DNA of 64,000 nt from a virus. The stretch covers positions 23,000-86,999 of the IMG/VR virus record IMGVR_UViG_3300032293_000813. The stretch is one strand, 5' to 3'. Shown one piece after another: positions 7,272 through 32,900 of the stretch. The position numbers were made by a program, and so were the translations under genes. Numbering within the stretch: the stretch's first letter is position 1; each line of letters starts with the position of its first letter. Below the pieces are notes generated by a model that saw nothing but the letters and a program-made list of their open reading frames with translations, did not search any database and had not been told where the DNA came from.

Positions 7272-7278
7272 ATCTCTA

Positions 7279-7285
7279 ATAAATA
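7279..7285 (-). promoter_or_regulatory. Candidate late promoter motif before NMNAT/ligase fusion
   Basis: The minus strand reads TGATATTTATTAGAGATATG. The TGA is the stop of the preceding SGNH gene, and the motif ends 7 bases before the chosen ATG. Confidence 0.4.
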
Positions 7286-16640: not shown

Positions 16641-17109
16641 ATAAACCTGTTATTTGCATTGTATATTTTGGCTCCATCCCCATATTTCCACTAAGGTGAA
16701 GTTCTCCATATCTAATTACTTTAAAATTCATTTTTCCCCATCCCACAAATGGTTCATCTAATATTTCAAAATAGTGACCACTTTTCCACGACTCCAAAAA
16801 GAAATTCAATCTACATACTTCCTCTTTACTACATCCATTCTTTTCTGAAAACTTATAGAATGTATCAAAATGAGAGGGTATTGTTTGACCCGGCATTTGT
16901 TTAATTACACTCAATGAATATTCTGAAAATATTGTTTTAGCAAAAGTATGATACTCCTCCGGTAATTCAAATGCCTGATAATACTGAGTGTTCTTATCCG
17001 TATATCCTGCCACTATGTAAGCAATATTCTGAGCATCATAGTTATCCGAATTACCTAAACTTACGTTATCCGAAAGTGTATCAAATTTTATGTTATGTAT
17101 TGTTAGCAT
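16579..17109 (-). CDS. 2OG-Fe(II) oxygenase-like protein
   Basis: A 176-residue protein with a probable iron-binding HxD in MPGQTIPSHFDTFYKF (H80, D82), a following RLNFFLESWKSGHYFEI beta-strand segment and a possible distal His at 138 (GELHLSGNMG). The order matches phage hydroxylases of the aspartyl/prolyl hydroxylase superfamily. It is only distantly like the protein at 3535-4050. Lying between an SDR gene and an aminotransferase-like gene, it may hydroxylate a sugar intermediate or an amino acid. Its 3' end overlaps the next gene by 62 bases, an unusually long overlap for this window. Confidence 0.5.
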   Translation of the reverse strand: MLTIHNIKFDTLSDNVSLGNSDNYDAQNIAYIVAGYTDKNTQYYQAFELPEEYHTFAKTIFSEYSLSVIKQMPGQTIPSHFDTFYKFSEKNGCSKEEVCRLNFFLESWKSGHYFEILDEPFVGWGKMNFKVIRYGELHLSGNMGMEPKYTMQITGLYEEFKRSETYTKSISKEVHY

Positions 17110-18061
17110 ATCCTAATGGGAATCCGTTTCTAAATTCAGATGTCATTCTAGGTATAAGTACTTGATAGGTTTTAATCAACTCTTCAATCCCATCATCTAA
17201 ACTATACTTAGGTTTCCAATCTGTTTTCTCTATCTTTTCATTCGATACTATATAATCTCTCTTATCAGGGTCTTCATAGAAATCCGAATAAGTGATTGCA
17301 AAATCAGGAATATATTGTTGTATCTTCTCTAATAATTCTTGTTTACTCAAATTAGCATCACTCAATCCTACATTATATACATTATGTTTCATAGTTTCAT
17401 AGTTATGCAATCCATGATAGAATACTCTACTAACATCTTGTATATGAATGAAATTTCTTTTAAAATGTCTTTCAAACACAACAATATATTTGTCGGTTAA
17501 TGCTTTATAAACAAATTCGTTTACTAATAAATCCGTTCTCATTCTCAGAGATGAACCAAATACGGTTGCTAATCTAAAACAAACTGCAGATGTTGATTCC
17601 ATTAATAACTTCTCCGCTGCAACTTTACTCTCCCCATAAACTGATATAGGATTCAATGGTGATTCTTCTGTGCAAAACTTACCATCTTCACCAACACCAT
17701 ATCCACTATTTGTATTTGGATATAATATCATCTGTTGGTCGGAAACTACTTTTGCGATATTTTCAATCTGATTGTAGTTTATTTCCCATGCTAACTTAGG
17801 GTCTTTTGCACACGCAGGAAATCCTACGATGGCAGCCAATGGTATTACAACATCATGTGTTCCCACTAGCTTCGTTAAAAGTGCTTCGTTCCTAACATCA
17901 CCATAGATGAAGTTATATCGTTTGTTAGCGGTAAACGCCAAAGGTGATATTTGATTGAATGATAGGTTATCTAATACTGTAACTTCGTGCCCTAAACTTA
18001 AAAAGTTATCGGTAATTACAGAACCTAAGTAACCTGCTCCTCCTGTTATTAAAATTTTCAT
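17093..18061 (-). CDS. NAD-dependent nucleotide-sugar epimerase/dehydratase (extended SDR)
   Basis: A 322-residue extended SDR with a complete active-site set: GGAGYLG (7-13) for NAD binding, YGDVRN (53-58), a Thr/Ser loop at YPNTNSGYG (114-122) and catalytic YGESK (Tyr142, Lys146). The C-terminal segment VYNVGLSDANLSKQELLE is typical of UDP-glucose epimerase/dTDP-glucose dehydratase relatives. Unlike the two SDRs at 10831 and 11774 it keeps the catalytic Tyr, so it is the best candidate for an active nucleotide-sugar-modifying step. It overlaps the LamG gene upstream by 4 bases. Confidence 0.88.
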   Translation of the reverse strand: MKILITGGAGYLGSVITDNFLSLGHEVTVLDNLSFNQISPLAFTANKRYNFIYGDVRNEALLTKLVGTHDVVIPLAAIVGFPACAKDPKLAWEINYNQIENIAKVVSDQQMILYPNTNSGYGVGEDGKFCTEESPLNPISVYGESKVAAEKLLMESTSAVCFRLATVFGSSLRMRTDLLVNEFVYKALTDKYIVVFERHFKRNFIHIQDVSRVFYHGLHNYETMKHNVYNVGLSDANLSKQELLEKIQQYIPDFAITYSDFYEDPDKRDYIVSNEKIEKTDWKPKYSLDDGIEELIKTYQVLIPRMTSEFRNGFPLGYANNT

Positions 18062-18795
18062 TCTCCTTTTATTTTATCTAAAATTCTATTTTGTATATCA
18101 TTTACATTATAATCTTGATATAAGAATCCATGATTCCCATTACCACTATAATCCCAAACTTTAAATCTGTTAATCTTATCTTTTAGGAATCTATATCTTG
18201 CTAAAGTAAATCTTCTAGTTATTTCACTATTAAACAAATCCATTTCTTCCTTTGATAATGCCTTTTCCATAATAACTACATCATCTATATTACCTTTATA
18301 CCACCAACTATATTGTTTCAAATGGTCTTCGATATAATGGGGTGCTCCTGCTCCTATATAGAAAGGTGTGTTATCATAATTTATAACTTCCGTTTTAAAC
18401 TTATGTTCTCTATCGATTCCATTAACTCTAATTCTAAAAACTTTATTAGTATAATCAACACTATAGAATACTTCATTCCACTCTCTATCGAAATCATATG
18501 GGTCTGAAAAAGAAATATTCTCTTTATCCAATACACCTGTCAGCCATAATTGATTTGATATTACAAATAAATCATCTTGCTTATTTATAAAACATCCACT
18601 ATGAAGACCTGATTTTGAGAATACTGCATATACCTCATTACCCTTTTCTTCTATCTTAGGAGTTCTAAACTTAGCATAGGCCGTAAAATCATGCTGAAAG
18701 AATGTTTTAAAGTTTGGTTTCTTAGATGTATTGAAAGATGAATTCTCCCATACTTTATAACTCAAATCTTTATCAAAATTTACATATTGTGTCAT
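18058..18795 (-). CDS. Stand-alone LamG/concanavalin-A-like lectin protein (second pair)
   Basis: A 245-residue protein that is essentially one LamG (Laminin_G_3-type) beta-sandwich. It has FTAYAKFRTPKI near the start, a long strand region, and the family signature YKGNIDDVVIMEKALSKEEM (about 166-185). A terminal DYSGNGNHGFLYQDYNV follows (about 218-234). There is no signal peptide or membrane segment. LamG modules usually bind glycans or proteins. It follows a radical-SAM gene with a 1-base overlap, repeating the arrangement of 20838-22232/20173-20841. A paired function with the radical-SAM enzyme, such as substrate presentation, is inferred. Confidence 0.7.
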   Translation of the reverse strand: MTQYVNFDKDLSYKVWENSSFNTSKKPNFKTFFQHDFTAYAKFRTPKIEEKGNEVYAVFSKSGLHSGCFINKQDDLFVISNQLWLTGVLDKENISFSDPYDFDREWNEVFYSVDYTNKVFRIRVNGIDREHKFKTEVINYDNTPFYIGAGAPHYIEDHLKQYSWWYKGNIDDVVIMEKALSKEEMDLFNSEITRRFTLARYRFLKDKINRFKVWDYSGNGNHGFLYQDYNVNDIQNRILDKIKGE

Positions 18796-20180
18796 TATCT
18801 AAGGTTTTTACATAAGTTCCAAAATTCTTCTAACTCTGGAAATGTTTTTAAGAAATCAGTTCCTCTTCTTCTATCATGCTCAGTAAAGAACCTAAAAAAA
18901 TCTTTTCTATCTCTTTTTAATGAGTGTTCTTCTTTCGGTGCAGTTACTACATCATATATTCTTCTTAATTTATGAATCTCCACATCGGTATATCCTATTG
19001 GATTTTGCGTTCCTAATGTTTCATAGAAATCCATTAATTGCGCTTGCTCATAAACTTCTTTGTGCCAATCATCTGTTATAATGTTTGCCGCCTGATGGTT
19101 TGGATGTCTTAAATAAGAACTATCCAATCCAATTGGGTAGAACCAATATCTATCTGTGTTGGTAAATTGTTGTTTCAATTTATACACATCTTCTATTAAT
19201 CCTTTATATGAAGGAATACTCAATACATTATAAGTTCCCATAATAGAAATAGTAAGTTTAGGAATCTCTTCCAATAACTCTGCGCATCTATCATACCATT
19301 GGTTATAATCAAACCCATTTCTAATATATTCCGATTGCTTACCTTTACCATCGCAAGATGTAAATAAGACAAACTCTCTAACCAATCCTTCTCCACTAAT
19401 TCTTTTAATCTTCTCCTTTGCCATTTGATATAACTTATCAGGTGCACCTAAGTTAGAATTGATTGCCAACTTTAACTTTGGATTAGGATTATCGATTACA
19501 TAATCAAATACCTTAAAGGTATCTTTGTGTAAAAGGGGTTCACCACCGGTAATTCTAAAGTTTAGAAGGTCTTTATATAAATCAGGCCACCACTTCCAAA
19601 ATGCTTCCACATAAGGATTATGTTCAGTTTGCTTAAATGGTTGCTTACCATCTCTGATTAATTGGTCTAAACTATTATGTCGGGTCGAAGTTGGATACGC
19701 ACCAAATTGTTCAATCTCATCCCACCATTGTGTAGAGAATTGTGGATAACAATATGAACATTTAAAGTTACATACATTTGAGAACGATACTTCAACGTAT
19801 GAAGGGTTTACATCCTCTAAGTAAGAACTATTTTTAATCTCTTCATAATAAGGTAATGCCCACTCTTCCGCAGATTTAAAAGTTCTATCTGAAAACTCAT
19901 TTGAGCTATCTTCAACTTTCCAACAATAATCGCATTCATTTGGTTTGATACCTTGCAACATTTCTCTTCTCAATTCCTTTTTGTATTTGGTATTGTGAAG
20001 TGCGGATGGGTTACCTTCCAATTCTTCAGGTACAATTTTATGTAATCCAGGATGGTGGCAAGAGTGATTCTGCCCTATATGTAAATGTAGGGTAACTTGT
20101 TTCCACTTAGCTAAACAAAATCCTTGTCCAACTGAATTTAGTTTTTTCCTTATTTCGGAATATCTCTCTATATTATCCAT
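18795..20180 (-). CDS. Radical SAM protein, twitch-type (second copy)
   Basis: A 461-residue radical-SAM enzyme. The [4Fe-4S] motif CNFKCSYC places Cys at 137, 141 and 144; the SAM-contacting GGEP is at 212-215. An N-terminal extension contains conserved Cys at 22 and 41 plus a CDYC pair (83, 86), suggesting an auxiliary metal or cluster site. The C-terminus resembles twitch-domain radical-SAM proteins found in other phages. It is closely paralogous to the protein at 20838-22232; many blocks are identical. These enzymes generate a 5'-deoxyadenosyl radical to modify peptides, sugars or cofactors. Here a glycan or LamG-associated substrate is plausible but unproven. Confidence 0.85.
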   Translation of the reverse strand: MDNIERYSEIRKKLNSVGQGFCLAKWKQVTLHLHIGQNHSCHHPGLHKIVPEELEGNPSALHNTKYKKELRREMLQGIKPNECDYCWKVEDSSNEFSDRTFKSAEEWALPYYEEIKNSSYLEDVNPSYVEVSFSNVCNFKCSYCYPQFSTQWWDEIEQFGAYPTSTRHNSLDQLIRDGKQPFKQTEHNPYVEAFWKWWPDLYKDLLNFRITGGEPLLHKDTFKVFDYVIDNPNPKLKLAINSNLGAPDKLYQMAKEKIKRISGEGLVREFVLFTSCDGKGKQSEYIRNGFDYNQWYDRCAELLEEIPKLTISIMGTYNVLSIPSYKGLIEDVYKLKQQFTNTDRYWFYPIGLDSSYLRHPNHQAANIITDDWHKEVYEQAQLMDFYETLGTQNPIGYTDVEIHKLRRIYDVVTAPKEEHSLKRDRKDFFRFFTEHDRRRGTDFLKTFPELEEFWNLCKNLR

Positions 20181-20841
20181 ATTTATTCGGTCTGGCTTTC
20201 GAAACGAAATCCATTATTTTATCGTGTTTAAATTTAACAGGCTCAGATATTAACCCATGATTACCATTTCCACTATTATCAAATATCTTAAAATTAGTTT
20301 TAGTATCCATATCCAACGAGGTATAAATTCCTTCTTCTTCTAATACAACATCTCTCTTTAAATTAAAAGATATTTCATGTGGTTCTAATGGTCTATCGTA
20401 TATAACTAATCTACTCAATTCACCTTCCAATAAATTTTCATCGGTTGTTTTCTCATGAATATTATCAGCTAAAAAAGTAAAGTAATTATTCTCATCTACT
20501 ACTTTTGGATAGTCAGGTTTGAAATCAAAACTAACTACTTTATTTCCATTAAAATAAGTAAATTTATGTCTCTTATAATCAATGTTAATAAAGAAATCAA
20601 ATTCGTTTCCAATATCATCTACTATATAAGAATGATATGTTCCCAAATCTTGAAACTGAAAGTGTAATTTATCTTCCGAAATAATAAGTGTTTCAGTTGA
20701 TAGATTTCTTCTATATAAGTAACCTACTTTCTTTGTGCAATTATGTGAACCAGTAAATCTAATAGAATACCCTGCAACTAAGTCTGTAAACTTTTTTGTG
20801 TTGGTTTTATTATTGGATTCATTTTGTATTGTGAATATCAT
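20173..20841 (-). CDS. Stand-alone LamG-like lectin protein (first pair)
   Basis: A 222-residue protein with a LamG-like fold signature. LVAGYSIRFTGS comes near the N-terminus, the strand-turn block LEGELSRLVIYDRPLEPHEI lies at about 141-160, and FDNSGNGNHGLISEPV is near the end. It is more divergent than the one at 18058-18795 but shares the same end motif. It overlaps the upstream radical-SAM gene by 4 bases and the downstream radical-SAM gene by 8, forming the middle of a radical-SAM, LamG, radical-SAM, LamG series. No export signal is seen. Confidence 0.6.
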   Translation of the reverse strand: MIFTIQNESNNKTNTKKFTDLVAGYSIRFTGSHNCTKKVGYLYRRNLSTETLIISEDKLHFQFQDLGTYHSYIVDDIGNEFDFFINIDYKRHKFTYFNGNKVVSFDFKPDYPKVVDENNYFTFLADNIHEKTTDENLLEGELSRLVIYDRPLEPHEISFNLKRDVVLEEEGIYTSLDMDTKTNFKIFDNSGNGNHGLISEPVKFKHDKIMDFVSKARPNKYG

Positions 20842-22232
20842 AGTTTTCCTTTTCTACATTTTTTATAAAGTTCATCGAATTCAGGGAATGTTTCTAAGAA
20901 ATTAGTTCCCCTTCTCATATCATGATGTCTTACAAAGATAAAGAAATCTTTTCTATTTTTCAAGAAAGTTGAATCATCATCGTGGTTTTTCATCCATTCT
21001 GCAATTCTCTTTACTTTAGTAATTTCAATATCTGTAAATCCATAACCATCTTCCCCTACTCTTACTTGCTCATAAAAATCCATAAGTTGAGCCTGTGAGT
21101 TTACTTCCTCTATCCATTCCTTATCTAATATCTTAACACTTTGATGCGGAGGCCATCTAAGATACGAACTATCTAATAATACCGAACTACCATAGTATCT
21201 ACTAGAACTATGATATTTCTTTTTCAATTCATATACATCTCTAATCAATCCTTTATAAGATGGAACTGATAAAGCATTATATGTACTCATTATGATAATA
21301 GTAAGTTTAGGATTTTCTGTTAATAAAATGTTTATTCTTTCGATAAACAAATCATAATTAAACCCATGTCTTATATAGTTTGCCTGCTCACCATGCGCAT
21401 CACAAGATGTGAATAGAATAAACTCATTAACTCTTTCTTCATCCATTAACTTTTTAATCTTCTCTCTGAACTCATTGAATATCTTTTCAGGAGCATTTAA
21501 GTTAGTGTTAATAGAAAGATTCAATGCCTTATTAGGATTAGGTTCACTATTGATGAAATCTAATACATCAAATGTATCCTTTGCCAAAAGAGGTTCTCCT
21601 CCTGTGATTCTGAATGTATGTAAATCCTTATACAAATCCGGCCACCATTTCCAAAACGCATCAACGTATGGATTCTTTTTATTATGAGGTATCGGCATCT
21701 GGTCAGTACTCTTCAAATAATCTAAGTTATTAAAATTAGTTGAAGTAGGGTATGAACCATGTTGTTGAATTTCGTCCATCCATTGAGATGAAAACGCAGG
21801 CCCACAATATGAACATTTAAAGTTACATACATTTGAGAACGATACTTCCACATATTTTGGGTTAATATCTTTTTCACCTTTTGTTTTCAATACCTCATCG
21901 AAATATTGCATCGACCAGGGTTCGGTAGATTTATATACTCTATCAGAAAACTCATTTGAATTATCCTCTATGTTCCAACAATAATCACACTCTTTAGGTC
22001 TTAATCCTTCCATCATTTCTCTTCTTCTATTCTTCTTATAGTTTGTATTGTGAAGAGCAGATGGATTCTGTGCCACCTCTAATTCAGAAATCTTATGTGT
22101 TACGGGGTGATGACACGAATGGTTATGACCCGTTTGCAGTTGAAGTGTAACCTGAGTCCACTTAGCTAAACAAAACCCTTTTCCAACTTTGTCTAACTTC
22201 TCTTTTGTTTTTTCGAAATGTTCGTTTAGCAT
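20838..22232 (-). CDS. Radical SAM protein, twitch-type (first copy)
   Basis: A 464-residue paralogue of 18795-20180. CNFKCSYC gives Cys136, 140 and 143; the GGEP segment follows at about 212. The N-terminal Cys pattern is the same: Cys21, Cys40 and CDYC (82, 85). Conserved blocks such as FCLAKW, NPSALHNT, ECDYCW and YVEVSFSNV are shared between both copies. It is followed by a LamG gene with a 4-base overlap. Both copies are intact, so the duplication has been kept under selection for function. The substrate is unknown. Confidence 0.85.
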   Translation of the reverse strand: MLNEHFEKTKEKLDKVGKGFCLAKWTQVTLQLQTGHNHSCHHPVTHKISELEVAQNPSALHNTNYKKNRRREMMEGLRPKECDYCWNIEDNSNEFSDRVYKSTEPWSMQYFDEVLKTKGEKDINPKYVEVSFSNVCNFKCSYCGPAFSSQWMDEIQQHGSYPTSTNFNNLDYLKSTDQMPIPHNKKNPYVDAFWKWWPDLYKDLHTFRITGGEPLLAKDTFDVLDFINSEPNPNKALNLSINTNLNAPEKIFNEFREKIKKLMDEERVNEFILFTSCDAHGEQANYIRHGFNYDLFIERINILLTENPKLTIIIMSTYNALSVPSYKGLIRDVYELKKKYHSSSRYYGSSVLLDSSYLRWPPHQSVKILDKEWIEEVNSQAQLMDFYEQVRVGEDGYGFTDIEITKVKRIAEWMKNHDDDSTFLKNRKDFFIFVRHHDMRRGTNFLETFPEFDELYKKCRKGKL

Positions 22233-23668
22233 TTACAATTTATTAATACTGAATTATTACCAATGTCTTCTATATTCAATAGTTCGTATTTCAAACTATT
22301 CATCCCATCATTCTGCCAATTATATTTTCCCTGCTGCATCTCTAACACATATCTCTTCTCATTTCTTGCAGTTGTTGCCCCTTTCTTCCATTTACCATTT
22401 ACCAATCCTTCGGTTTCATGTGGTAAACATTCAAACTTACCATTTCTTCTATAAGGTATAACGGTTGATGGTATCTCCATTTTCTCTTTGGTAAATGTAA
22501 CATTATGCATTTTACCATGATTACCATTTCCCGTTTTATCTTCAACCATCTCATCGATGAAAGAATCAAAATCATAATGAAGTTGTAAACCATCTTCTTC
22601 TAAATGAAATGGAATATCTGCTACCTCACCATCCGTCATACATCTATCATACATTCTAACTTCAGCAATTTCTCCCTTAAAAAACTTGTTCGGTTGATTT
22701 TGATTTATAGAAGGAGATGTTCCCATATAAAATCCTTCCGTTCCATATCTCTTTAAATCACCACTATATTCCATTGGAGAAGTTACACCTGTTCCAAATC
22801 TAGCATCTGTTTCTCTTCCGTTTAAATAGAAGTGAATCTTTTTATTATAAGCATCCACTTTCAAAGTTACCCATGTCCATAAATTCTCATATCGCTTCAT
22901 CCACATATATTGCATCTCCTTCTCACTATTCCATAACATCGAAGTAAATGCTCTACTATTGTTATATGATAATCCCCAATCATATCCTGGTCTTCTTAAG
23001 ATAGGATATTCCCAAAATCTTCTATTCTCATCTCCGATTAAGTAGATAGGAATCTTTTCTTCTTGTTGGTGTGCCTTTACTAATACTGAAATAGTATGAG
23101 AACGATTACACATAAATCGGATAGAACGAGATTGTGCGGTTTCTATATAGGATTTTATTCCATCAAAATTAGCCACACTAAATTCATTCTGTGGTTTGAT
23201 ATATGTTTGGTCTGCCATCCCATTTAATGCACATCTCCAAAACAAATCATCATCTTCCATACCCCAATCCCAATAATCATTTGAGTAACCATTGGTTTTG
23301 TAAACTTGTTCTTTTGTAAACAATACAGCGCCCCCAAAATACTCCTCATATTTGAGGTTATAATCTGTTTGAGATATTCTTACCGCCAAATGTTTTGGGT
23401 TCTCAGGATTGTAACTATAATCACACGAATCATCTTCTGGTATCATATCAATATCATGCCATACGATATAATCACATCCATCCTTAAATGCCACATCCGC
23501 TGCAATGTTTTTCATCTTACCTCTGTTAAAAAGTAAGTTATCACATTGGTGTGCAAAATATATTTTATGCTCAATACCTCTCTCTTCCAAAAATTTGTGA
23601 ACTCTCGGTGAGAACTGAGCTAAATGTTCTTCTCTGTTTCTATATGGTACACATACCCCTAACTTCAT
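22226..23668 (-). CDS. GT7 (beta-1,4-galactosyltransferase-like) with LamG domain inserted
   Basis: A 480-residue protein. Residues 1-162 match the N-terminal part of the GT7 catalytic domain: VPYRNREEHL, FNRGKMKNI, the metal-binding HDID (71-74), EYFGGAVLFTK and WDWGMEDDD (133-141). Residues about 163-400 are a LamG domain, with FFKGEIAEVRMYDRCMTDGE and TGNGNHGKMHN. Residues 405-480 look like the missing C-terminal part of GT7: GKFECLPH (His417, equivalent to the metal-binding His of bovine B4GALT1) and DGMNSLKYELLNIEDI (454-469). The lectin domain is therefore nested inside the enzyme. No membrane anchor is seen. It probably transfers galactose or a related sugar within the host cell. Confidence 0.8.
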   Translation of the reverse strand: MKLGVCVPYRNREEHLAQFSPRVHKFLEERGIEHKIYFAHQCDNLLFNRGKMKNIAADVAFKDGCDYIVWHDIDMIPEDDSCDYSYNPENPKHLAVRISQTDYNLKYEEYFGGAVLFTKEQVYKTNGYSNDYWDWGMEDDDLFWRCALNGMADQTYIKPQNEFSVANFDGIKSYIETAQSRSIRFMCNRSHTISVLVKAHQQEEKIPIYLIGDENRRFWEYPILRRPGYDWGLSYNNSRAFTSMLWNSEKEMQYMWMKRYENLWTWVTLKVDAYNKKIHFYLNGRETDARFGTGVTSPMEYSGDLKRYGTEGFYMGTSPSINQNQPNKFFKGEIAEVRMYDRCMTDGEVADIPFHLEEDGLQLHYDFDSFIDEMVEDKTGNGNHGKMHNVTFTKEKMEIPSTVIPYRRNGKFECLPHETEGLVNGKWKKGATTARNEKRYVLEMQQGKYNWQNDGMNSLKYELLNIEDIGNNSVLINCKC

Positions 23669-25101
23669 AACTCTACTGAAATCATTTTAGCCTTTTCAGA
23701 TAATTCTTTTTCTTCTACCTTTTTATATCTTAATGTATTCAATCCTTCAATCGAATAGAATAACACATCGTCTTTAATTGAATTGAATCTTAACTGATTC
23801 TTTCTAGTCTCTTCCCAAACCCATCTATTTCCTTCTACACTATTAGATGAATGTTTAAGTGTTTTGAACTTACAATCCTTTTTAGTTGGAATCGTAACCT
23901 CTACCATAAACTTACTATTCATCAATGTGTTAGCCTGGCAATTGATAATCTCAGCATCAAAGTTGTTACCGGATATATCAATCAATTTATCCTTTCTATA
24001 ATGTCTGAAATCGTAATATGTTTTTAAACTCTTAGATGATTTATATTTACCAAAATTATTCAATAGGGATTTCTTAGCTGAATCTTTATATATTTGATTG
24101 ATTTCAGGCAAACTTAATGCCTTATCAAATACCGCAAACTCAGAAATCAATCCTTTGAAATAATAATTCTCATAATTCTTAGATGGATTGGCAACTCCTA
24201 AATAGAAATCGGTTACATTGTAATCATACATATCTTCTATAAATTCCTCACCTATTAATTTACCATTGATAAACAACTCAATACTTTTACTACGATAGTT
24301 TCGTTTGATAACTGCGTGTACCCACATATCAGGACTAATATCAGATGTTATACTTCTACTCTTTTCTTCTTTATCCCATATATCCAATTTGTATCTATTG
24401 AAACTATTATAGGATAGAGAGAAGTTAAAACCAGGAATAGAGAATATTGTGTATTCATCGTATTCTCTGTTTGAGTTATTAACTAAATCCTCTGCTTTAA
24501 ATTTAATAGAGATACTGAAATCATCATTAAGTATCTTTTTAAATTGAGGAAATGGAATACTAACAAATGAATCAATTCCGTTAAAGTAGAAATAATTCAA
24601 TACAAAGTTTTCATCCTCTATACCAAATACTTTTTTATCCAATGTAAGATTACAACTCTCACATCTTTTTAAAAGGTCATCATCCTCAAAACCCCAACCC
24701 CAATATTCGTTAGAGTAACCATTAATAATTTTGAAATCTAATTTACTCAATATAGTAACTCCACCAAAATAGTTATAGAAACTTTCTTCGCCATTAAGAG
24801 TGTTAGCTAAGTGAGTTGGTACATCACAATACGAATAATCCGCATCGATAGGTAACATATCCACATCATGAAAACAATAGTAATCAAAATCAGGTCCACT
24901 TTCTTTATAACCTACATTCAACAACTTACCTCTATTAAAAGGTTTATCATCTTTTTGTTCAATGACAAAAACCTTGTAATCAACTTTAGTTCCTAAATAT
25001 TCTTCAATATATGGAATAAAGATGTTAAGGTGAGATTCCCTATTTCTGTAAGGAACTATTATTGCTAATTTCTTAGTTGTTGTTTTACTGCGGTCTTTCA
25101 T
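23665..25101 (-). CDS. GT7 (beta-1,4-galactosyltransferase-like) with LamG domain inserted
   Basis: A 478-residue paralogue of the next gene. The GT7 front half shows VPYRNRESHL, FNRGKLLNVGY, FHDVDMLP (DVD at 79-81), YFGGVTILSK and WGWGFEDDD (134-142), the best match to the canonical WGWGxEDDD. A LamG domain spans about 165-400 (YYFKGLISEFAVFDKALSLPE, then DISGNN). The GT7 rear half is CKFKTLKH (His417) and IEGLNTLRYKKVEE (451-464). The Met that precedes the metal-binding His in animal enzymes (M-x-x-H) is Thr here. It overlaps its neighbours by 4 and 17 bases. Transfer of a sugar onto GlcNAc-like acceptors is the family reaction; specificity here is unknown. Confidence 0.82.
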   Translation of the reverse strand: MKDRSKTTTKKLAIIVPYRNRESHLNIFIPYIEEYLGTKVDYKVFVIEQKDDKPFNRGKLLNVGYKESGPDFDYYCFHDVDMLPIDADYSYCDVPTHLANTLNGEESFYNYFGGVTILSKLDFKIINGYSNEYWGWGFEDDDLLKRCESCNLTLDKKVFGIEDENFVLNYFYFNGIDSFVSIPFPQFKKILNDDFSISIKFKAEDLVNNSNREYDEYTIFSIPGFNFSLSYNSFNRYKLDIWDKEEKSRSITSDISPDMWVHAVIKRNYRSKSIELFINGKLIGEEFIEDMYDYNVTDFYLGVANPSKNYENYYFKGLISEFAVFDKALSLPEINQIYKDSAKKSLLNNFGKYKSSKSLKTYYDFRHYRKDKLIDISGNNFDAEIINCQANTLMNSKFMVEVTIPTKKDCKFKTLKHSSNSVEGNRWVWEETRKNQLRFNSIKDDVLFYSIEGLNTLRYKKVEEKELSEKAKMISVEL

Positions 25102-25318
25102 CGTTAGGTCTTTCTGAATCTCTCATTGGTCGAGATACACTTCCTAAGTTTTTAGCTTTTAAAATAGTGTGAAATTCATGTAAGTACCATTCAACTCTTG
25201 TTCCCCAAGCTGATTTATCGATTTCAAACATCCAATCATTTAAATCTCTGAAAGATGAAGCAATATCTTCTAATGCTCTTACCTTTCTCTCTTCTAAGTT
25301 TTTTTCGTCTACTGCCAT
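25085..25318 (-). CDS. Small helical protein (tandem twin 1)
   Basis: A 77-residue protein of unknown function, paralogous to the neighbour at 25333-25566. Shared features are an EERKVRALEDIA-like helix, a DWM-E-D motif (DWMFEID), a RVEWYLHEFHTILKAK helix and an Arg/Pro-rich tail ending ERPQ. It is highly charged and probably all-helical, with no signal or membrane segment. It may be a small scaffold or regulator. Only 14 bases separate it from its twin, and its 3' end overlaps the GT7 gene by 17 bases. Confidence 0.65.
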   Translation of the reverse strand: MAVDEKNLEERKVRALEDIASSFRDLNDWMFEIDKSAWGTRVEWYLHEFHTILKAKNLGSVSRPMRDSERPNDERPQ

Positions 25319-25332
25319 AACTTAATGTTTAA

Positions 25333-25566
25333 TTATTGAGGTCTTTCAGTTCCCTTTTCAGGTCTTCCTGTGTTACCAATAGTTTTCGCTTTTGCAATCA
25401 TATAGAATTCGTTTAAATACCATTCTAATCTTTCCGACCATCCTTTGGTATCTAACTCATACATCCAATCTTGAATGTTTTCCAATGAACCTGCAATCTT
25501 TTCAAAAGCCTTAACAGCTCTTTCTTCGATGTTATCGGTTTGTTCTGGTTTTTTAGATGTTGCCAT
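25333..25566 (-). CDS. Small helical protein (tandem twin 2)
   Basis: A 77-residue protein of the same length and layout as 25085-25318: EERAVKAFEKIA helix, DWMYELD, RLEWYLNEFYMIAKAK helix and a tail ending ERPQ. It is clearly a tandem duplicate. Aromatic and acidic positions are conserved, suggesting a maintained fold. Function is unknown. It lies one base after the stop of the 82-residue gene. Confidence 0.65.
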   Translation of the reverse strand: MATSKKPEQTDNIEERAVKAFEKIAGSLENIQDWMYELDTKGWSERLEWYLNEFYMIAKAKTIGNTGRPEKGTERPQ

Positions 25567-25567
25567 T

Positions 25568-25816
25568 TTATTTATTTTTTAATTTATTTTCTGTTTTGTG
25601 TTGAAAGAATCCTGTTGGAAATGGAGTAGCCTGCCTCGATGAATAATATTCTCTTAATAATTCTAATGCAGAGAATATTATCGGTTGTACATATGAGAAG
25701 GTTTGAAGTGTTTTATTCTTTTCAAAAACTTCTAATGCTTCCGCTACTCTTTCCGCTTTACTAACAAATTCTTCGTTGTTAATAAGTTTTTTTACTATAG
25801 AACTATCTTTATCCAT
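25568..25816 (-). CDS. Small hypothetical protein
   Basis: An 82-residue, probably helical protein (KKLINNEEFVSKAERVAEALEVFEKNKTL, broken here as two helices) with no recognised family. It overlaps the upstream GT7-LamG gene by 22 bases and directly precedes the twin 77-residue genes. Three small genes thus sit between GT7 copies. The coding call rests on the tight packing and ATG start. Confidence 0.5.
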   Translation of the reverse strand: MDKDSSIVKKLINNEEFVSKAERVAEALEVFEKNKTLQTFSYVQPIIFSALELLREYYSSRQATPFPTGFFQHKTENKLKNK

Positions 25817-27282
25817 GTTGCTTTTTCATTTATTTGTTCTTCTGATAAAATCTTATAATTTAAATAATTCAATCCTACCTCTTTTGTATCCAATCTATTT
25901 GTTAATACTTCGTTGAAATATATTTGAGAGTTTTGTACAATATCCGGGTCCCAACTATAAAACTTCTCCGTTATTTGGTCATCACCTTCGTGGATTAAAG
26001 ATTGATACTTACCTAATATTCTAGATGGAACTGATAAACGGGATGTTTTTGGTATCGTATCCTTTTTAAGATACTCCGAATAGTTTCCGAATTCAGGTCC
26101 ATATATCTTAACGTGATTAAGAGTTAATGAATCATCTAAAATAAAATCTCTATATGTTTTATCAAACTTAATATTCAATACAGGCTCTAAATCTGTATTC
26201 TTTTTCTCATCATTATATCCTTCTAAATAAAGGTTATCAATTTCTCGTTGTTCTAACACATAATCAAATAACAATACGTTAGCCATCTTACCATTATATC
26301 TAGCGGTATTCAAACTACTACATCCTAAGAATAAGTGTTCGTTTGTATAATCATATAAAGGTGTTACGATGTAAGGTTGTTGGTCTCCTGTATAACTTAT
26401 CTTAACTGAGTTTAAATACATCTCAATTAATTCCTTATTATAATCAACAACAAATACTACATGATTCCAAACACCTGGTTCATATTTCTTATATGCAAAA
26501 CAATACTGTTTATCATTATCATAAACATTCACTCTTATTGTACCATCTTTCTGTAATGATATACCGGTATTAAATCCTTTCCAAGCAATTAAGTATTCCT
26601 CTTCTTCTACCATATCAGAATTGAACCATAATGCGGCAGTAAAACTATCTCTCGTAATATCTCTTAATTGAGCATTAGGAAATATCTTTAGGTACAAATC
26701 GTTACCACTAAAGTCCGCATAGTTTACCTGCTCAATATATTTCTTATCTGTTATCTTAATCTTTTCAAATTCATAATAAGAATCTATGCGAGGAAAAATT
26801 GTTTCTTCATCTAATTCAATTTCGTTTATTCTACATCTGTGAAGTAAATCTAAATCAGCAAACCCCCATCCCCAATACTCATTTGAAAATCCATTTATCT
26901 TTTCGAAATCTTCTTTACTAAACATAACAACACCACCCATATATTCTAAGTAAGGTAACTTAAACTTATGAGCAGATACTCTAGTTGCCATATGAACGGG
27001 ATATCCACCAATGTGAATGTAATTGTAATCACAATCATCACTTACAGGCAGCATATCAATGTCGTGGAAACAGAAATAATCAAATTTATCTTTCAATAAA
27101 GAGAATCCTATATTACAGATTTTTCCATAGTTAAATGGTTTATCATCGGTTTGCTCAACAATAATAATTTCATACTCTACATCTTTGTTCTTAAAGAACT
27201 CAATCATGTGAGGTACGAAAGTATCTAACTGCTCTCGTCTATCCCTATAGGGTACTATTATCGCTATCTTTTTTCCGTACAT
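25795..27282 (-). CDS. GT7-like glycosyltransferase with LamG inserted, degenerate EDDD
   Basis: A 495-residue third member of the GT7-LamG family. GT7 front half: VPYRDRREQLD, FNYGKICNIGF, FHDIDMLP (DID at 74-76), YMGGVVMFSK and WGWGFADLD (137-145). Compared with WGWGxEDDD, the Glu is Ala and the third acidic residue is Leu; the Asp corresponding to the catalytic base is kept. A LamG domain spans about 180-405 (YNGKMANVLLFDYVLEQREI). GT7 rear half: GKYQSLIH (His431) and VGLNYLNYKILSEE. It may have altered donor or acceptor use or reduced activity. It overlaps the GT2-like gene upstream by one base. Confidence 0.78.
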   Translation of the reverse strand: MYGKKIAIIVPYRDRREQLDTFVPHMIEFFKNKDVEYEIIIVEQTDDKPFNYGKICNIGFSLLKDKFDYFCFHDIDMLPVSDDCDYNYIHIGGYPVHMATRVSAHKFKLPYLEYMGGVVMFSKEDFEKINGFSNEYWGWGFADLDLLHRCRINEIELDEETIFPRIDSYYEFEKIKITDKKYIEQVNYADFSGNDLYLKIFPNAQLRDITRDSFTAALWFNSDMVEEEEYLIAWKGFNTGISLQKDGTIRVNVYDNDKQYCFAYKKYEPGVWNHVVFVVDYNKELIEMYLNSVKISYTGDQQPYIVTPLYDYTNEHLFLGCSSLNTARYNGKMANVLLFDYVLEQREIDNLYLEGYNDEKKNTDLEPVLNIKFDKTYRDFILDDSLTLNHVKIYGPEFGNYSEYLKKDTIPKTSRLSVPSRILGKYQSLIHEGDDQITEKFYSWDPDIVQNSQIYFNEVLTNRLDTKEVGLNYLNYKILSEEQINEKATWIKIVL

Positions 27283-28136
27283 TATATTGAAACTATGTGT
27301 TTAGATAGTTTATTCCAATTACTGAAAGATACGAAGGATTTTTCAGATTTCCAAGTGAATTCTTTGTATTTTTCCAAATCTATACAATATCCATAATCCT
27401 CTATACCATTCAACATTATCTGATATTCTCTTGAGTAAGAATAATCTTGTCCAATCTTTGCTACCGCTTTCAATCTATCTACTACACTCTTATCCCATTT
27501 GAAATGGTGAACTTGTACAAATCCCTTATTAATTGGATATCTCAATGGGTGATTCCAACCTTGCCATCTCCAAGTTGATTGCCCTTCTATTTGAGCATAA
27601 TGTTGACCGGATGTTACTTCAATTCTACCTTTACATAATGTAACTTTATTTGGACAGGCTCCACTCATTGGGTATCTAAAAAATGAACTGATAGGAAATG
27701 CTTCCCATAAATCCGTATTCTCATCTACAAATGGAAAACTACCATCTTCTCCAATCTTATCTATAAATCCACCGGTTACAAATTCCCATCCATTATGTTC
27801 ACACTCTTCTATTATAGAATTTACATCATCCCAATACAAATGTAATTCATCATCATCCGCTACTATCCACCAATCGTTGGGATATAAGTTCTTTATCTCA
27901 TTGTAGAAATGTGTTACTGAAATCCAATTGAATGCATCCGATTCTCTTTCGTGCACAATACATCCAAATTCTTCAGCAATCTCATTAACTCTATCGAATG
28001 ATTCTTTATTGTTTACATCAAGAGTTCTGTAATTAACCAAATGAATTTCACTCACTATATCTTTATAATGAGATAACATCTGTCGTAGAGTATTTGTTCT
28101 ATGACCAGTAACGGTTATTAATCTAGGTTTTTTCAT
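27282..28136 (-). CDS. Putative glycosyltransferase with DDD motif (GT2-like)
   Basis: A 284-residue protein with ITVTGHRTNTLRQML at the N-terminus, a Rossmann-like first half and WWIVADDDELHLYW (about 89-102), the DxD-type metal/nucleotide-sugar site of GT-A glycosyltransferases. Further conserved-looking blocks are GFIDKIGEDG and VQVHHFKWD. It probably transfers a sugar; donor and acceptor are unknown. It lies as second gene behind the host-type promoter, overlapping the methyltransferase gene by 4 bases. Confidence 0.6.
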   Translation of the reverse strand: MKKPRLITVTGHRTNTLRQMLSHYKDIVSEIHLVNYRTLDVNNKESFDRVNEIAEEFGCIVHERESDAFNWISVTHFYNEIKNLYPNDWWIVADDDELHLYWDDVNSIIEECEHNGWEFVTGGFIDKIGEDGSFPFVDENTDLWEAFPISSFFRYPMSGACPNKVTLCKGRIEVTSGQHYAQIEGQSTWRWQGWNHPLRYPINKGFVQVHHFKWDKSVVDRLKAVAKIGQDYSYSREYQIMLNGIEDYGYCIDLEKYKEFTWKSEKSFVSFSNWNKLSKHIVSI

Positions 28137-28891
28137 TTTCTTCGTATGAGTGTTAATCCAGTAGATGATGGTTTATTTTTTATGATACCAAAATTAAATA
28201 AGTTAAATACTTCCCAATCTTTACTATCTTTCAATTCTTTTACAAATTGAATAGGCCCACTCCAATCATCGTGGTCACCTCTATCTTTTATTTCATTTGT
28301 TATAATATAGTTATCAGCATATTTCGAATCAGTATCGTGTATTGAGATGATACCATTTTCTGATAATATTTGTGAGTATAAATCAAAATCTTCCTTAACG
28401 TTTTCATATGAATGTCCTGCATCTATGTGTAAATAATCAATCTTAATATCGTTTAATACAAAGTAATTGTGAAATGCCTCTTCGGTAGTTGTGTTAATAA
28501 TTCTAGGATGAAAAGTTCTTCTGTAAAATGATTCTTCTGCAAACCAATCTACATTACCACCAATACCATTCATTGCATCAACTACATAAGTTGTTCCAAT
28601 ATCTCCCCAATTATAATCAGCATTTCCTTCGAAGATTCCTTGCCTATGTAAATCGTATCTAGATTGTGTCATTAGACGAGGAATAAATCCTCCTCCACTA
28701 CCTAAACATACACATACTTTAGCTCTCATATATTGTATAATAGAATATATGATTAAACCATCGCCTAAGTGTACATCGGTTGCTCCGTGAGACCATCTAT
28801 AGGGAACAGGATGCTCCTCTTCTTCACCTCTAAAATCAAACTCTAAATTGTTAGTGAGGTACTTCTTTATGTAGTTTAAGTCTTGTAACAT
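28133..28891 (-). CDS. Class I SAM-dependent methyltransferase
   Basis: A 252-residue Rossmann-fold methyltransferase. Motif I is VCVCLGSGGGFIP (59-71), and the post-motif block reads IDYLHIDAGHSYENVKEDF (about 153-171), followed by GIISIHDTD. This pattern is that of the Methyltransf_24/TylF/cephalosporin-hydroxylase group, which O-methylates sugars and other small molecules. It is the first gene of the long sugar/lectin unit, directly behind a strong Bacteroidota-type promoter (28921-28951). O-methylation of an island sugar is a reasonable inference. Confidence 0.75.
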   Translation of the reverse strand: MLQDLNYIKKYLTNNLEFDFRGEEEEHPVPYRWSHGATDVHLGDGLIIYSIIQYMRAKVCVCLGSGGGFIPRLMTQSRYDLHRQGIFEGNADYNWGDIGTTYVVDAMNGIGGNVDWFAEESFYRRTFHPRIINTTTEEAFHNYFVLNDIKIDYLHIDAGHSYENVKEDFDLYSQILSENGIISIHDTDSKYADNYIITNEIKDRGDHDDWSGPIQFVKELKDSKDWEVFNLFNFGIIKNKPSSTGLTLIRRK

Positions 28892-28920: not shown

Positions 28921-28951
28921 CAAAGATACTAAAAATTCATCACTTTTCCAA
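28921..28951 (-). promoter_or_regulatory. Bacteroidota-type housekeeping promoter for the sugar/lectin island
   Basis: On the minus strand, TTG (28949-28951) is followed after 20 bases by TATCTTTG (28921-28928). This matches the Bacteroides/Flavobacterium sigma-ABfr consensus TTG, 19-21 bases, TAnnTTTG. It lies about 30 bases upstream of the methyltransferase ATG and would drive the island leftwards as an early or middle unit. Confidence 0.75.
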
Positions 28952-29921
28952 CTTTATTTTTCCAATTTTCTAAGGATGCAAACCCCCCCATATACTCTCT
29001 TAACTTATTGAATTCCAACACTTTAGAGTCATATGTTTCGATTGCAATTTCCTTCACAATTTCATCAAAATCTTCCTTAGTTTCTACCCTATATTTGTAA
29101 TCACATTCTACTCCCCAATCTTTATGAAGTATAGGAAGTTTACCATAGTTTACCGCATCAAATACTGAATACCCAAATGGTTCGTTTTTGTAAGCAGAAT
29201 GAAATGTTTGCCAACTCTTATCTATAAACCATTGACGGTGAATACTCATATCAAACTCATAGAACTTACATCTCTTAAAATCGTATTGCTCTGATATGTT
29301 ATAATAATCATATTTGTGAGTGAGAACTTTTGCAGTATGCCCACTTAACCAATGTGGATTCTTTCTACTTTCAAATCGTGCAGCGTATCCAATAGTTTCC
29401 GTATCTACATCAACCAATTCTCTATTCTCCGTAAATGTATAATAATTAGGTATAGTAATACAATCCCATTCATCTAAAAGTGAAGAGTGATTTAATCCTA
29501 TCCAAATTCTATTCTTACATTTTCTTAATAGTAGATTTTGCCATCCTAAATCAATCTTTGTTGGATATAATTTAAAATCAGTTCCAGCTTCTGTTATATC
29601 TTTTGCATATGCCTGAATGAATACTGAATTCCACTTATCCTGATATTCCATAAGGTACTCTCTATGTGAATACGGTGGGTGTAGGAAGATTATTCTATCA
29701 CATCTATCCAATGTATCCTCCACCATTTTGGGGTTCTCTAAACGGAAGATATGGGGTATAGAAATGGATGATTGAATATGTTTAGCAGGTCGTTTATTAT
29801 CGATTATCAAACATACTTCTTCTTCGATGGTAGGAACTATATGTTGAATAAAATTATTTACCCATATATCCCCTCCACCGATAATTTGATTACCCGCAGA
29901 TGTCGTAACAAATACTATCAT
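28929..29921 (-). CDS. Glycosyltransferase (GT4/GT-B-like)
   Basis: A 330-residue protein with a GT-B look: an N-terminal Gly-rich loop (IIGGGDIWVNNF, about 13-24), GYAARFESRKNPHWL (about 196-210) and the donor-binding EPFGYSVFDAVNYGKLPIL (about 257-275), equivalent to E-x7-E-type blocks of GT4 enzymes. It is the last step before the island's host-type promoter. Its gene follows the giant fibre gene after 6 bases, so it may be read from the fibre transcript (late) rather than with the rest of the island. Confidence 0.75.
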   Translation of the reverse strand: MIVFVTTSAGNQIIGGGDIWVNNFIQHIVPTIEEEVCLIIDNKRPAKHIQSSISIPHIFRLENPKMVEDTLDRCDRIIFLHPPYSHREYLMEYQDKWNSVFIQAYAKDITEAGTDFKLYPTKIDLGWQNLLLRKCKNRIWIGLNHSSLLDEWDCITIPNYYTFTENRELVDVDTETIGYAARFESRKNPHWLSGHTAKVLTHKYDYYNISEQYDFKRCKFYEFDMSIHRQWFIDKSWQTFHSAYKNEPFGYSVFDAVNYGKLPILHKDWGVECDYKYRVETKEDFDEIVKEIAIETYDSKVLEFNKLREYMGGFASLENWKNKVGKVMNF

Positions 29922-29927
29922 AACTTT

Positions 29928-32900
29928 TTATATCGAACCACTAAGTTGTGCCTCTAAATAAATAACTTTATCGTTTAATTCTTGAATAGCCTTAATCATT
30001 GGTGCAATTAACTCAGTATAATTTAATCCCATATACCCTTCTTTTTGATAATTAATATCTCTTTCAACCGATTCCCAATTAGATTGTGTTTTAAATTTTT
30101 CAATCTGCTCATCTGTATATTCTAATGATGAAGTATGTATAAATGAAACATCATCTGTTCCATGTCCATATTCTGATAACGATGAACTTATTTCTTGTGC
30201 CACAAAACCATAATGATATCTAGGTGTTTTTGATTCATTATATTTAAATTTCTTTGGTTTTAATTTATTAAGAAATTCTAATCCCAAATCACTATCCTCA
30301 ATTGAATTTTTTAATCTTTCATCCGAAATATTTAATGCATTATTCGTCCAAACAGTTCTCCATCTATTACCCGTAGTTCCTAAATCATTCGTATTACCAA
30401 CGAATGGATGCCATACACCATTACAATAACTAAATTGACCACTACCATTAGAATCAAAATAAACAGTACCTTTTAGTTTTATCTTATCCCCGACTCTGTT
30501 CATCTTTATATAATCATTTGCACTATCTGCAATTATTATTCCTTTATCCGATATTTCAGCAAGAGATACTGCTTTATTATATGTTTTACTACCCTGTGAT
30601 TCTTGAGAGATTGTATAATCTATGTATCCTGAATTTATAAATTTCATTACCTCAGTAACGGGTTTCATATAATATGTTCCAGCTGCAGGAAATGTAAATG
30701 ATTGGAATTGGCTCATCAATCCACTGTACACCGTACCCGAATCCATTGCGGTGAATGAATTAGCTGAATTTACATACATTGTTCCATAGACAGTTCCACC
30801 TGCATCGACAACATTTACATAACTATATAGGAATAAATATCCAGAAAAAGCTGGACTTGTTCCGTATTGTATATACGATGACCCCCAATTATATTTAACA
30901 GTAACAACATATGTTCCTGCTGCAGGAACCGAGAATGAAGTTGTTGTACCACTAGTCGTTACATTACCGGATGTAGTTATACCATATTCAGTAACAAGTA
31001 CTTGATTTATAGTTGCAGAAAAATTATCCGCTGATTCTGGGTCTGTAAGTGAACCAATTTTTATATTTAATTTTGTTTCACCTGTTGTATCCGCGTATTC
31101 AATATTTGGTGCACTCGGATTTAGTGTGATTTTTCCCGTTGAAGATGAACCTATTAACTTTCCTACATTATCAACTACCCATCCACCGATACTACCTGCG
31201 GTTGCAGTTACGGTACCGGTAATGTTTGCAGTAGTTGCACTAAGTACACCTGCAGTAGATACACTAAATGGAGCCGATGCGAATGAATTATTACCTAACC
31301 ATATTCCAGTAGTATCTGCTTTAAAGATATTAGGTGCAGTTCCAATTGCAATACTACCACCGGTTATACTTGCTCCACTAACAGTTCCACCACTAACAGT
31401 TCCACCACTAATAGTACCACCTGAAATTGTTGCAACGGATGTAATGTTTCCACTAAAGTATCCAGATGATGCACTTATGATACCATTAACGCTTAAAGAA
31501 CTACCATCCCATTTTAAAAACCCACTAGCTCCAACTAATGACATCCTATAATTGCCTGAATCATTACCTAACCAAATACCCGTTGAACCATATGTTTTAG
31601 TTGTTTGCCCAACTGAAATATAAGGATACGCATTTCCACCATAAATTGTTACGTTCGATGCATTTCCCGCTGCATTAGTACCAACATTTATTGTGTTTTG
31701 TACATAAGATTCTTCTGCAATTAAAAGACCCGTTGCTACTGCACTAAAAGAAGTAAATTCTTCCCAAGTTGCATCCCCTCCATTAGTTGGGGTTGAGGTA
31801 GCGTTAATCGTTGTTAAATCGGCTCCTCTGAAAGCGTAGAATTTTCCACTATGTTTTACCGCATCTTTTTTAGTTGCACTATTATTTAAAACAAATCCAG
31901 GTTCCGCTGCTTTCTTTGTTGCATAATCACCGATGTATAAAAGACCAGGACCCTGTCTACCATCTTTAACAGGAGTTACTTTATGAGTTCGAACTTCACT
32001 TCCCGCTACTCCTTCTGAATTTACATAGTTAACCGTTATAGTAGTTGTAGTACCTGCATCAGTTGTAGGAGTGGTAGGCGTAACGGTTCCATTATTATTG
32101 TTTGTACCACCTGTTACAGATACATAAAATGTACTATTACCATAAGGAGAACTATCATCATAGCTATAATCAGAAGATTCTTTTGCTTTAATTGTTACCA
32201 CCGCCGGAGCCGTATATCCTCCGGAAGATGATGCAACGTTTTGCCCTTCAGGTGTTATCGTTACTAATGTAGTAGGTGCCGCATTTTTAACTTTCGATAA
32301 TGATATACTATCTGTTACTACTCTAGTCGTTCCCTCACTATCTGTTATAGTAGCACTAACTGCAACGGTTGTACTATCAGTTGCCGATGCCAATGTTCTA
32401 CCATTTAATGTAATTATTCCTGTTGCAGGTGCTGTTCCGATTGTTGCTATATCGGCAGATGTTGCATTTAAAGTGGTTATTGTTTTTGTTGTAGTTGAAC
32501 CATCATATGTTTCACTCACTGTCACAACTGAATTACTAAATGCTCCAATTTGTGCACCCGTTGATTTCCCACTTACACTTTGTATTTTGTTTGTTATCTC
32601 TATCTTTAATACTGGTGCCGCTTTTCTTGCCTTTGTTACAGATGATTTTAATGAACCAGTTCCATAAGAACCTTCACCAAATGTATAATGAACTTCATCC
32701 AACGTTAATTGAACCGAATCACTACCGCTCACCATATTATTAAGTGTAACAGTGTTGGTTGATATCGCAGTAGTAATTGTAGTAACAGGAACTTGTGATA
32801 CGGATTTTATTCTATTAAATCTATCTGTTCCATTTTCAGTTGCAGTTACATTTAATGTTGTATATCCCGCAGTTGTATTACCACCTGCTACCGCACCAAT

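Follow-up and report, generated by a model that had tools for sequence, protein, structure and literature searches.

LamG domains nested within the predicted catalytic domain of GT7 glycosyltransferases from uncultivated phages

Introduction

The closest described counterpart of the proteins analyzed here is beta-1,4-galactosyltransferase 1 (B4GALT1), an animal Golgi enzyme of glycosyltransferase family 7 (GT7) that has no nested domain. A separate protein, alpha-lactalbumin, changes the acceptor of this enzyme. Polypeptide GalNAc-transferases, which belong to another glycosyltransferase family, carry a C-terminal lectin domain that guides acceptor use; this domain has a different lectin fold and is appended rather than nested. 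Domains of the LamG/pentraxin-like type bind many things besides sugars. Here, we describe three GT7 proteins, named w1, w2, and w3, which are encoded in a 64,000-base stretch of viral DNA (the window; positions 23,000–86,999 of the 164,499-base record IMGVR_UViG_3300032293_000813) and in which a LamG domain is predicted to sit inside the catalytic domain. A lectin-type domain in this position, rather than at the end of a glycosyltransferase, represents an unusual coupling of binding and catalysis.

Results

Domain architecture of the three GT7-LamG proteins

Structure models and profile comparisons showed that in w1 and w2 the predicted GT7 catalytic domain is interrupted by a complete LamG sandwich, located in the loop before the metal-binding His. 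The same nested order is suggested for w3 by its Pfam matches and by homology of its insert and tail. The three genes and their parts are as follows.

22226..23668, minus strand: w1, GT7 with predicted nested LamG, 480 amino acids (aa) (Pfam, AlphaFold model)
23192..23668, minus strand: w1 GT7 front half, about residues 1–159 (Pfam, model)
22463..23191, minus strand: w1 nested LamG, about residues 160–402, boundaries approximate (Pfam, model)
22226..22462, minus strand: w1 GT7 rear block, about residues 403–480, with His417 and DGMNSLKY (profiles, model)
23665..25101, minus strand: w2, GT7 with predicted nested LamG, 478 aa (Pfam, AlphaFold model)
24607..25101, minus strand: w2 GT7 front half, about residues 1–165 (Pfam, model)
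23902..24606, minus strand: w2 nested LamG, about residues 166–400 (Pfam, model)
23665..23901, minus strand: w2 GT7 rear block, about residues 401–478, with CKFKTLKH and EGLNTLRY (profiles, model)
25795..27282, minus strand: w3, GT7 with putative nested LamG, 495 aa, acidic motif ADLD (Pfam and homology)
26752..27282, minus strand: w3 GT7 front half, about residues 1–177 (Pfam)
26032..26751, minus strand: w3 putative nested LamG, about residues 178–417 by homology, Pfam match 195–348 (Pfam, homology)
25795..26031, minus strand: w3 GT7 rear block, about residues 418–495 (homology)

AlphaFold2 models of w2 (115-row alignment) and w1 (97-row alignment) had a mean predicted local distance difference test score (pLDDT) of 94.5 and 95.1 and a predicted template modelling score (pTM) of 0.91 and 0.89, respectively. 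When aligned to bovine B4GALT1 (1tvy) with VIA-align, both reached Z 27.8, w2 over 212 residues with a root-mean-square deviation (rmsd) of 2.5 (model 4–478 to chain 174–398) and w1 over 214 residues with an rmsd of 2.0 (model 1–480 to chain 180–398). Because the front half comprises only about 160 residues, some 50 or more of the B4GALT1-aligned residues should lie behind the LamG domain, the alignment being given as ranges. In the same VIA-align lists, residues 166–400 of w2 and about 160–400 of w1 matched LamG/pentraxin folds (4dqa, PAPP-A, and pentraxins; Z 17–22). As read from the alignment, the insertion point falls at approximately residues 334–340 in bovine B4GALT1 numbering, directly before Met344 and His347.

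Profile comparisons agreed with the models. The tails of the family matched those of compact bacterial GT7s with hhalign (probability 99.1, E 1e-18), and the insert compared with the same compact tails gave a probability of 0.6. The input consisted of 151 family tails, of which the program kept 100, and 33 of 50 compact tails, 17 without the simple motif being omitted; 41 of the 151 family tails, including that of w2, deviated from the cutting motif and were trimmed by length instead. A further profile, built from 17 compact GT7s, matched human B4GALT1 through its DGLNSLTYQVLD end, which links the family tails, the compact tails, and B4GALT1. In a phmmer search of PDB sequences, w1 matched B4GALT1 over residues 2–152 (E ~1e-30). 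Two results speak against a GT7 fold that continues behind the insert: plain phmmer picked up the rear block of w1 only as an insignificant second piece, and Foldseek alone aligned mostly the front 150–157 columns of w1 to B4GALT1, the end-to-end match being that of VIA-align.

The first-pass annotation, which was made from the DNA letters, had proposed a nested domain rather than a tail fusion, with the two halves forming one GT7 fold. This holds for w1 and w2: in both models the C-terminus completes the GT7 fold and a LamG-like sandwich is present. The placement of a lectin next to the acceptor site, which the annotation also suggested, is conjectural. A tail fusion is ruled out for these two proteins, as the rear block aligns inside the GT7 fold and with the compact GT7 tails. 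A permuted LamG was considered since a YDF...DxSGN stretch sits at the C-terminal end of the insert; it was dropped because the alignments with PAPP-A and pentraxins cover the same region.

All three proteins matched the Pfam families GT7N, GT7C, and Laminin_G_3 (PF13385) above the curated cut-offs, with E-values, in this order, of 9.5e-19, 1.1e-19, and 3.5e-10 for w1, 1.8e-24, 2e-17, and 6.2e-15 for w2, and 1.7e-21, 9.5e-20, and 1.6e-16 for w3. The w1 and w2 open reading frames (ORFs) overlap by 4 bases, and a gap of 693 bases with small ORFs inside it separates w2 from w3. The annotated ORF coordinates were exact for all three genes. The motif WGWGFEDDD, annotated in every paralogue, is exact in w2 only; w1 reads WDWGMEDDD and w3 reads WGWGFADLD, so that EDDD is replaced by ADLD in w3. 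The annotated rear-block His and GLN-type end were recovered throughout (GKFECLPH and DGMNSLKY in w1, CKFKTLKH and EGLNTLRY in w2, GKYQSLIH and VGLNYLNY in w3). The tail His is presumably the metal-binding residue, going by the roles of the Met344/His347 region in bovine B4GALT1; together with DxD and EDDD, it is present in both w1 and w2.

Distribution of the nested architecture

Scans of viral contigs yielded 73 loci with w2 and 72 with w3. With w1, 227 stretches matched; as the analysis covers the best 80 of these, the analyzed set understates the size of the family, which is frequent in uncultivated aquatic phage contigs. Queries with compact GT7s found both compact and inserted kinds in viruses (best 80 kept). 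A scan of genome contigs gave 57 loci, seven of which have the length of the inserted form (L224–L229 and L234, the last one partial). L224–L227 carry cassette genes, and the contigs of L229 and L234 are too short to judge their setting. L228 (4956–11091) is a LamG-bearing GT7 on a bacterial-looking contig, followed by a GT2 and an ABC transporter (both over cut-off) and HlyD (below cut-off). Its GT7 is among the tree rows nearest to w1 and was possibly taken from a phage.

Among 377 complete unique ORFs (13 partial ORFs being left out), the GT7 halves were 200–340 residues apart in 286, compact in 89, intermediate in none, and unclassified in 2; since most ORFs came from LamG-carrying queries, the 286 and 89 are no estimate of natural frequency. 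In one unclassified ORF (L076, 5197–6657) the GT7 part lies further in. The other (L052, 5465–6655) is a GT7-LamG ORF that stops before the rear block, a truncated or broken copy. Compact GT7s have about 214–277 aa in simple cases and are longer with N-terminal extensions. Pfam searches of 97 family members (E<=0.01) found GT7N and GT7C in all 97 and Laminin_G_3 in 90. The shared spacing of the 286 complete ORFs, together with these 90 of 97 relatives, excludes chance or assembly error, and the complete ORFs rule out a frameshift. No match was found by tblastn in 50,697 deposited phage records for w3 (E<=1e-5), w1 (E<=1e-3), or the compact L230 (E<=0.01), a set from which near records may be left out.

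Catalytic residues and divergence

The relatives were assigned to w1-, w2-, and w3-like groups by best summed BLAST score. Every one of the 140 w1-like proteins has both DxD Asp residues, the complete EDDD motif, and the tail His. The w2-like proteins (n = 97) retain the DxD Asp residues in 97 and 96, the Glu of EDDD in 96, its Asp residues in 97, 83 (middle), and 97, and the His in 96. Judged by these residues, w1 and w2 look active.

Mean pairwise identities of front, insert, and tail were.64/.38/.48 in the w1-like group, which is the most conserved of the three by identity,.59/.33/.38 in the w2-like group, and.54/.27/.35 in the w3-like group. The insert is thus the fastest-varying part, a pattern that suggests docking-type evolution. 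None of the three window proteins has a hydrophobic segment (highest 19-residue Kyte-Doolittle mean 0.47–0.97), and the glycosyltransferase core starts within the first ten residues, which leaves no room for a signal or anchor.

Origin of the insertion

A tree of the glycosyltransferase part only (43 inserted and 44 compact representatives) requires one state change, with all inserted forms on one side of a branch that has a Shimodaira–Hasegawa-like approximate likelihood ratio test (SH-aLRT) support of 94. Removal of four long-branch rows (leaving 41 inserted and 42 compact) raised this support to 99. We read the change as a gain rather than a loss because compact GT7 is the usual cellular form; the tree itself is unrooted. 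In hhalign comparisons, the three paralogue groups have closely related inserts (E 1.8e-35 to 3.5e-53), and stand-alone LamG-like clusters are more distant from them (E 0.004 to 8.5e-23, with a probability below 60 in 4 of 24 comparisons, three of which involve cluster c25), which fits one insertion followed by duplication. Separate trees of the front half and of the tail are less favorable to this scenario, as each needs 2 changes instead of 1. Overall, the comparisons fit a single origin of the insertion among the sampled sequences.

The phage and its gene cassette

Matches to a T4-type terminase, a baseplate wedge gene, and SbcC/SbcD-like proteins point to a T4-like tailed phage, a large one of aquatic origin. 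The nearest deposited relatives of the terminase are those of Flavobacterium phage immuto (56% identity) and Microcystis phage Mel-JY01 (54.6%). The GT7-LamG genes are flanked by the following features.

29928..35765, minus strand: tail fibre protein, 1945 aa, S74 chaperone near the C-terminus, Ser+Thr 23%, upstream of the cassette
28929-29921: ORF between the S74 fibre gene and the methyltransferase
28133..28891, minus strand: methyltransferase, Methyltransf_24 (Pfam)
27282..28136, minus strand: cassette protein c2, no significant family match
25102..25794, minus strand: small ORFs between w2 and w3, about 73–81 codons between stops, two of them in the small cassette protein family
20838..22232, minus strand: twitch-domain radical S-adenosylmethionine (SAM) protein, NF033640, first gene after w1 (NCBIfam)
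20173..20841, minus strand: stand-alone LamG-like protein, encoded next to the radical SAM gene (Pfam E 0.031, below cut-off)
18795..20180, minus strand: second twitch-domain radical SAM protein, NF033640 (NCBIfam)
18058..18795, minus strand: second stand-alone LamG protein (PF13385 over cut-off)
17093..18061, minus strand: NAD-dependent nucleotide-sugar epimerase/dehydratase

The gene order in the window, from the S74 fibre gene through ORF 28929–29921, the methyltransferase, and c2 to w3, leads into a cassette that recurs across the 80 contigs found with w1, some of which are near-copies and whose 6-kb flanks limit the gene counts: methyltransferase, c2, GT7-LamG genes, radical SAM, LamG-like protein, and sugar enzymes. 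Two or more genes of the GT7-LamG cluster occur in 78 of the 80 loci. A radical SAM cluster gene directly follows the last GT7 gene in 76/80, and a LamG-like gene adjoins a radical SAM gene in 75/80. The methyltransferase was found in 72 loci, c2 in 76, and the epimerase in 53. Pfam searches of cassette representatives additionally identified an E1-type thiamine pyrophosphate (TPP) enzyme and a deoxythymidine diphosphate (dTDP)-sugar isomerase.

The two radical SAM proteins of the window, on which NF033640 was tested, scored 328 (20838–22232) and 324 bits (18795–20180) against a cut-off of 170, and each of their genes is paired with its own stand-alone LamG-like gene (20173–20841 and 18058–18795). 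In four other loci (L183, L209, L211, and L221), the radical SAM cluster has four to six genes per locus. Pfam searches of five representatives of the stand-alone LamG-like proteins from other loci gave one match over cut-off, one below, and none for three (E<=0.05); the label of these separate cassette proteins otherwise rests on a profile built in this analysis.

A family of small proteins (about 80 aa; consensus LEERKVKALEKIA...W...YLxEFH) is encoded among the GT7-LamG genes in 77 of the 80 loci (L144–L223) and possibly acts as a partner of these enzymes. The island of the window also holds, at 9406–10017, 15157–15786, and 4050–7289 (minus strand), a transketolase-like match (below cut-off), pieces of an E1-type TPP enzyme, and a cytidylyltransferase-like domain. 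Together, these three kinds of pieces hint at an unusual phage-made sugar. By hydropathy, the 24 island ORFs include no clear membrane protein (highest score 1.76, for the E1-type TPP enzyme); among the 1058 ORFs of the 80 loci, 27 score above 1.8, and 26 of these belong to the E1 and epimerase clusters. Further along the window, a 1625-aa protein (47511–52388, minus strand) matches LamG weakly, below cut-off (21.7 bits, near 49209–49358). Should this protein belong to the virion, a LamG-related module may be present there.

Proximity to the tail fibre gene

The position of the S74 fibre gene was surveyed in 25 of the 80 contigs, chosen for length (74.6–287 kb), all of which contain GT7. Of these, 22 have an S74 match. 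In 19, this match shares the strand of the first GT7C match and is located 3.1–7.4 kb upstream of it. Random placement would give about 1.2 such contigs, or 2.3 with strand ignored, a figure that takes no account of phage module order or contig kinship.

Discussion

The reading that we favor, with a probability of about 0.45, is that the GT7-LamG proteins are soluble phage enzymes whose nested LamG domain docks the acceptor, the S74 fibre or a linked glycan being the likely target. Lacking hydrophobic segments, they would act in the cytosol of the infected cell and, as GT7 members, would resemble B4GALT1 in using a metal ion and a nucleotide sugar. The LamG domain, which diverges fast and precedes the metal-binding His, may be a docking module built into the enzyme to hold the acceptor. 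Gene neighborhood makes the S74 tail fibre, or a glycan on it, the most likely acceptor, and successive paralogues may extend the same glycan chain. The nearby sugar enzymes (epimerase, dTDP-sugar isomerase, and TPP enzyme) are consistent with such a role. Virion glycosylation has a precedent in mycobacteriophages, as cited in PMC12619734.

Several observations weigh against this account. Six of the 25 long contigs have no S74 match within 8 kb upstream, three having none at all and three having one about 46–56 kb away, and gene proximity is no proof of substrate. Furthermore, w3-like proteins (n = 49) often lose catalytic residues, with the DxD Asp residues kept in 45 and 45, the Glu of EDDD in 23, its Asp residues in 37, 3 (middle), and 47, and the His in 32. 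Going by these residues, w3 is drifting and may have another acceptor or lower activity. Compact bacterial GT7s (n = 50) are also non-uniform, with the His in 35, the first DxD Asp in 38, and the middle Asp of EDDD in 24.

The main rival, which we consider somewhat unlikely, is that the same enzymes remodel a host surface polysaccharide such as O antigen or capsule, for example against superinfection, with LamG docking there. Such a role is given for glycosyltransferase clusters of jumbo cyanophages by Iyer et al, 2021 (PMC7824862), and the sugar genes that the cassette contains or has close by (epimerase, dTDP-sugar isomerase, and TPP enzyme) would suit it too; the absence of a clear membrane protein from the 24 island ORFs, the assignment of 26 of the 27 high scorers in the loci to the E1 and epimerase clusters, and the nearby fibre gene in 19 of the 25 contigs argue against it. 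Among the closest folds of the insert are pentraxins and PAPP-A as well as a putative carbohydrate-binding protein, and in 75 of the 80 loci a gene for a LamG-like protein adjoins a radical SAM gene. Both points would agree with LamG being a protein–protein or oligomerization module that gathers the cassette enzymes, as pentraxins oligomerize, rather than a glycan binder. We regard this as unlikely, since rapid variation of the insert is less expected of a scaffold. Doubtful as well, and rather more speculative, is an extension of the fibre reading to a glycan assembly line, in which LamG is nested in the GT7s and also a separate partner of radical SAM, the GT7s, radical SAM, and methyltransferase share one acceptor, the S74 fibre, and LamG variation retargets the decoration as fibres change.

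Two further proposals appear much less probable. The cassette might make a modified peptide or small glycoconjugate, with the small protein as the substrate decorated by radical SAM, methyltransferase, and GT7s. The occurrence of this protein in 77 of 80 loci, with a twitch radical SAM and a methyltransferase, would fit; its conservation lies in the middle rather than the tail, and the consensus shows no evident leader/core pattern, which makes the proposal improbable. Modification of phage DNA, which PMC12619734 lists as a role of the core glycosyltransferases in "moraphages", is the least probable of all: sugar-nucleotide enzymes and a fibre gene lie nearby, and no search aimed at modified-base genes was made. 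Moreover, GT7 enzymes act on sugar and glycoconjugate acceptors.

For the favored fibre reading and its host-surface rival alike, the nested design may help phages to add sugars to their own fibres or to the host surface, and the conserved cassette makes phage-encoded fibre or surface glycosylation directly testable.

Comparison with known systems

The jumbo phages of Iyer et al, 2021 (PMC7824862) and the moraphages (PMC12619734) resemble the present phage in being large and encoding several glycosyltransferases, with sugar-nucleotide genes in the former. In term searches, "galactosyltransferase" and "radical SAM" were absent from both, and "lectin" and "laminin" from PMC12619734. The nested GT7-LamG arrangement was found neither in the open-access literature searched nor among the PDB matches listed for the w1 and w2 models, and none of the 50 listed viral models matched w2 over its full length (best query TM-score 0.41). 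This agrees with the first-pass remark that no GT7 with such an insertion had been described. Giant-virus GT7s (Mimivirus LCMiAC01, 315 aa; Aureococcus anophagefferens virus, 805 aa) match the GT7 part of the w2 model over 158–170 alignment columns, but the match is limited to the GT7 front.

Compact bacterial and viral GT7s, such as L230 from Parachlamydiaceae and L260 from Pelagibacteraceae, have the same two halves in the same order, but the halves are joined directly (89 in our set). The LamG/pentraxin-like proteins BACOVA_03559 (4dqa), PAPP-A, and PTX3 share the sandwich over 184–205 aligned residues (Z 17–22); unlike in the present family, their domain lies outside any glycosyltransferase, and their ligands differ. 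B4GALT1 (bovine/human; 1tvy, 6fwt) shares the GT7 fold, DxD, WxWGxEDDD, the metal-binding His, and the DGLNSLxY end, with 31–36% identity to the w1 and w2 models over 192–214 aligned residues. Thus, GT7 and LamG are each known, and their nested combination is new as far as the open-access literature and structure matches show. B4GALT1 with alpha-lactalbumin is the nearest functional analogue of the added module, and the nested LamG could offer a starting point for studies of acceptor specificity.

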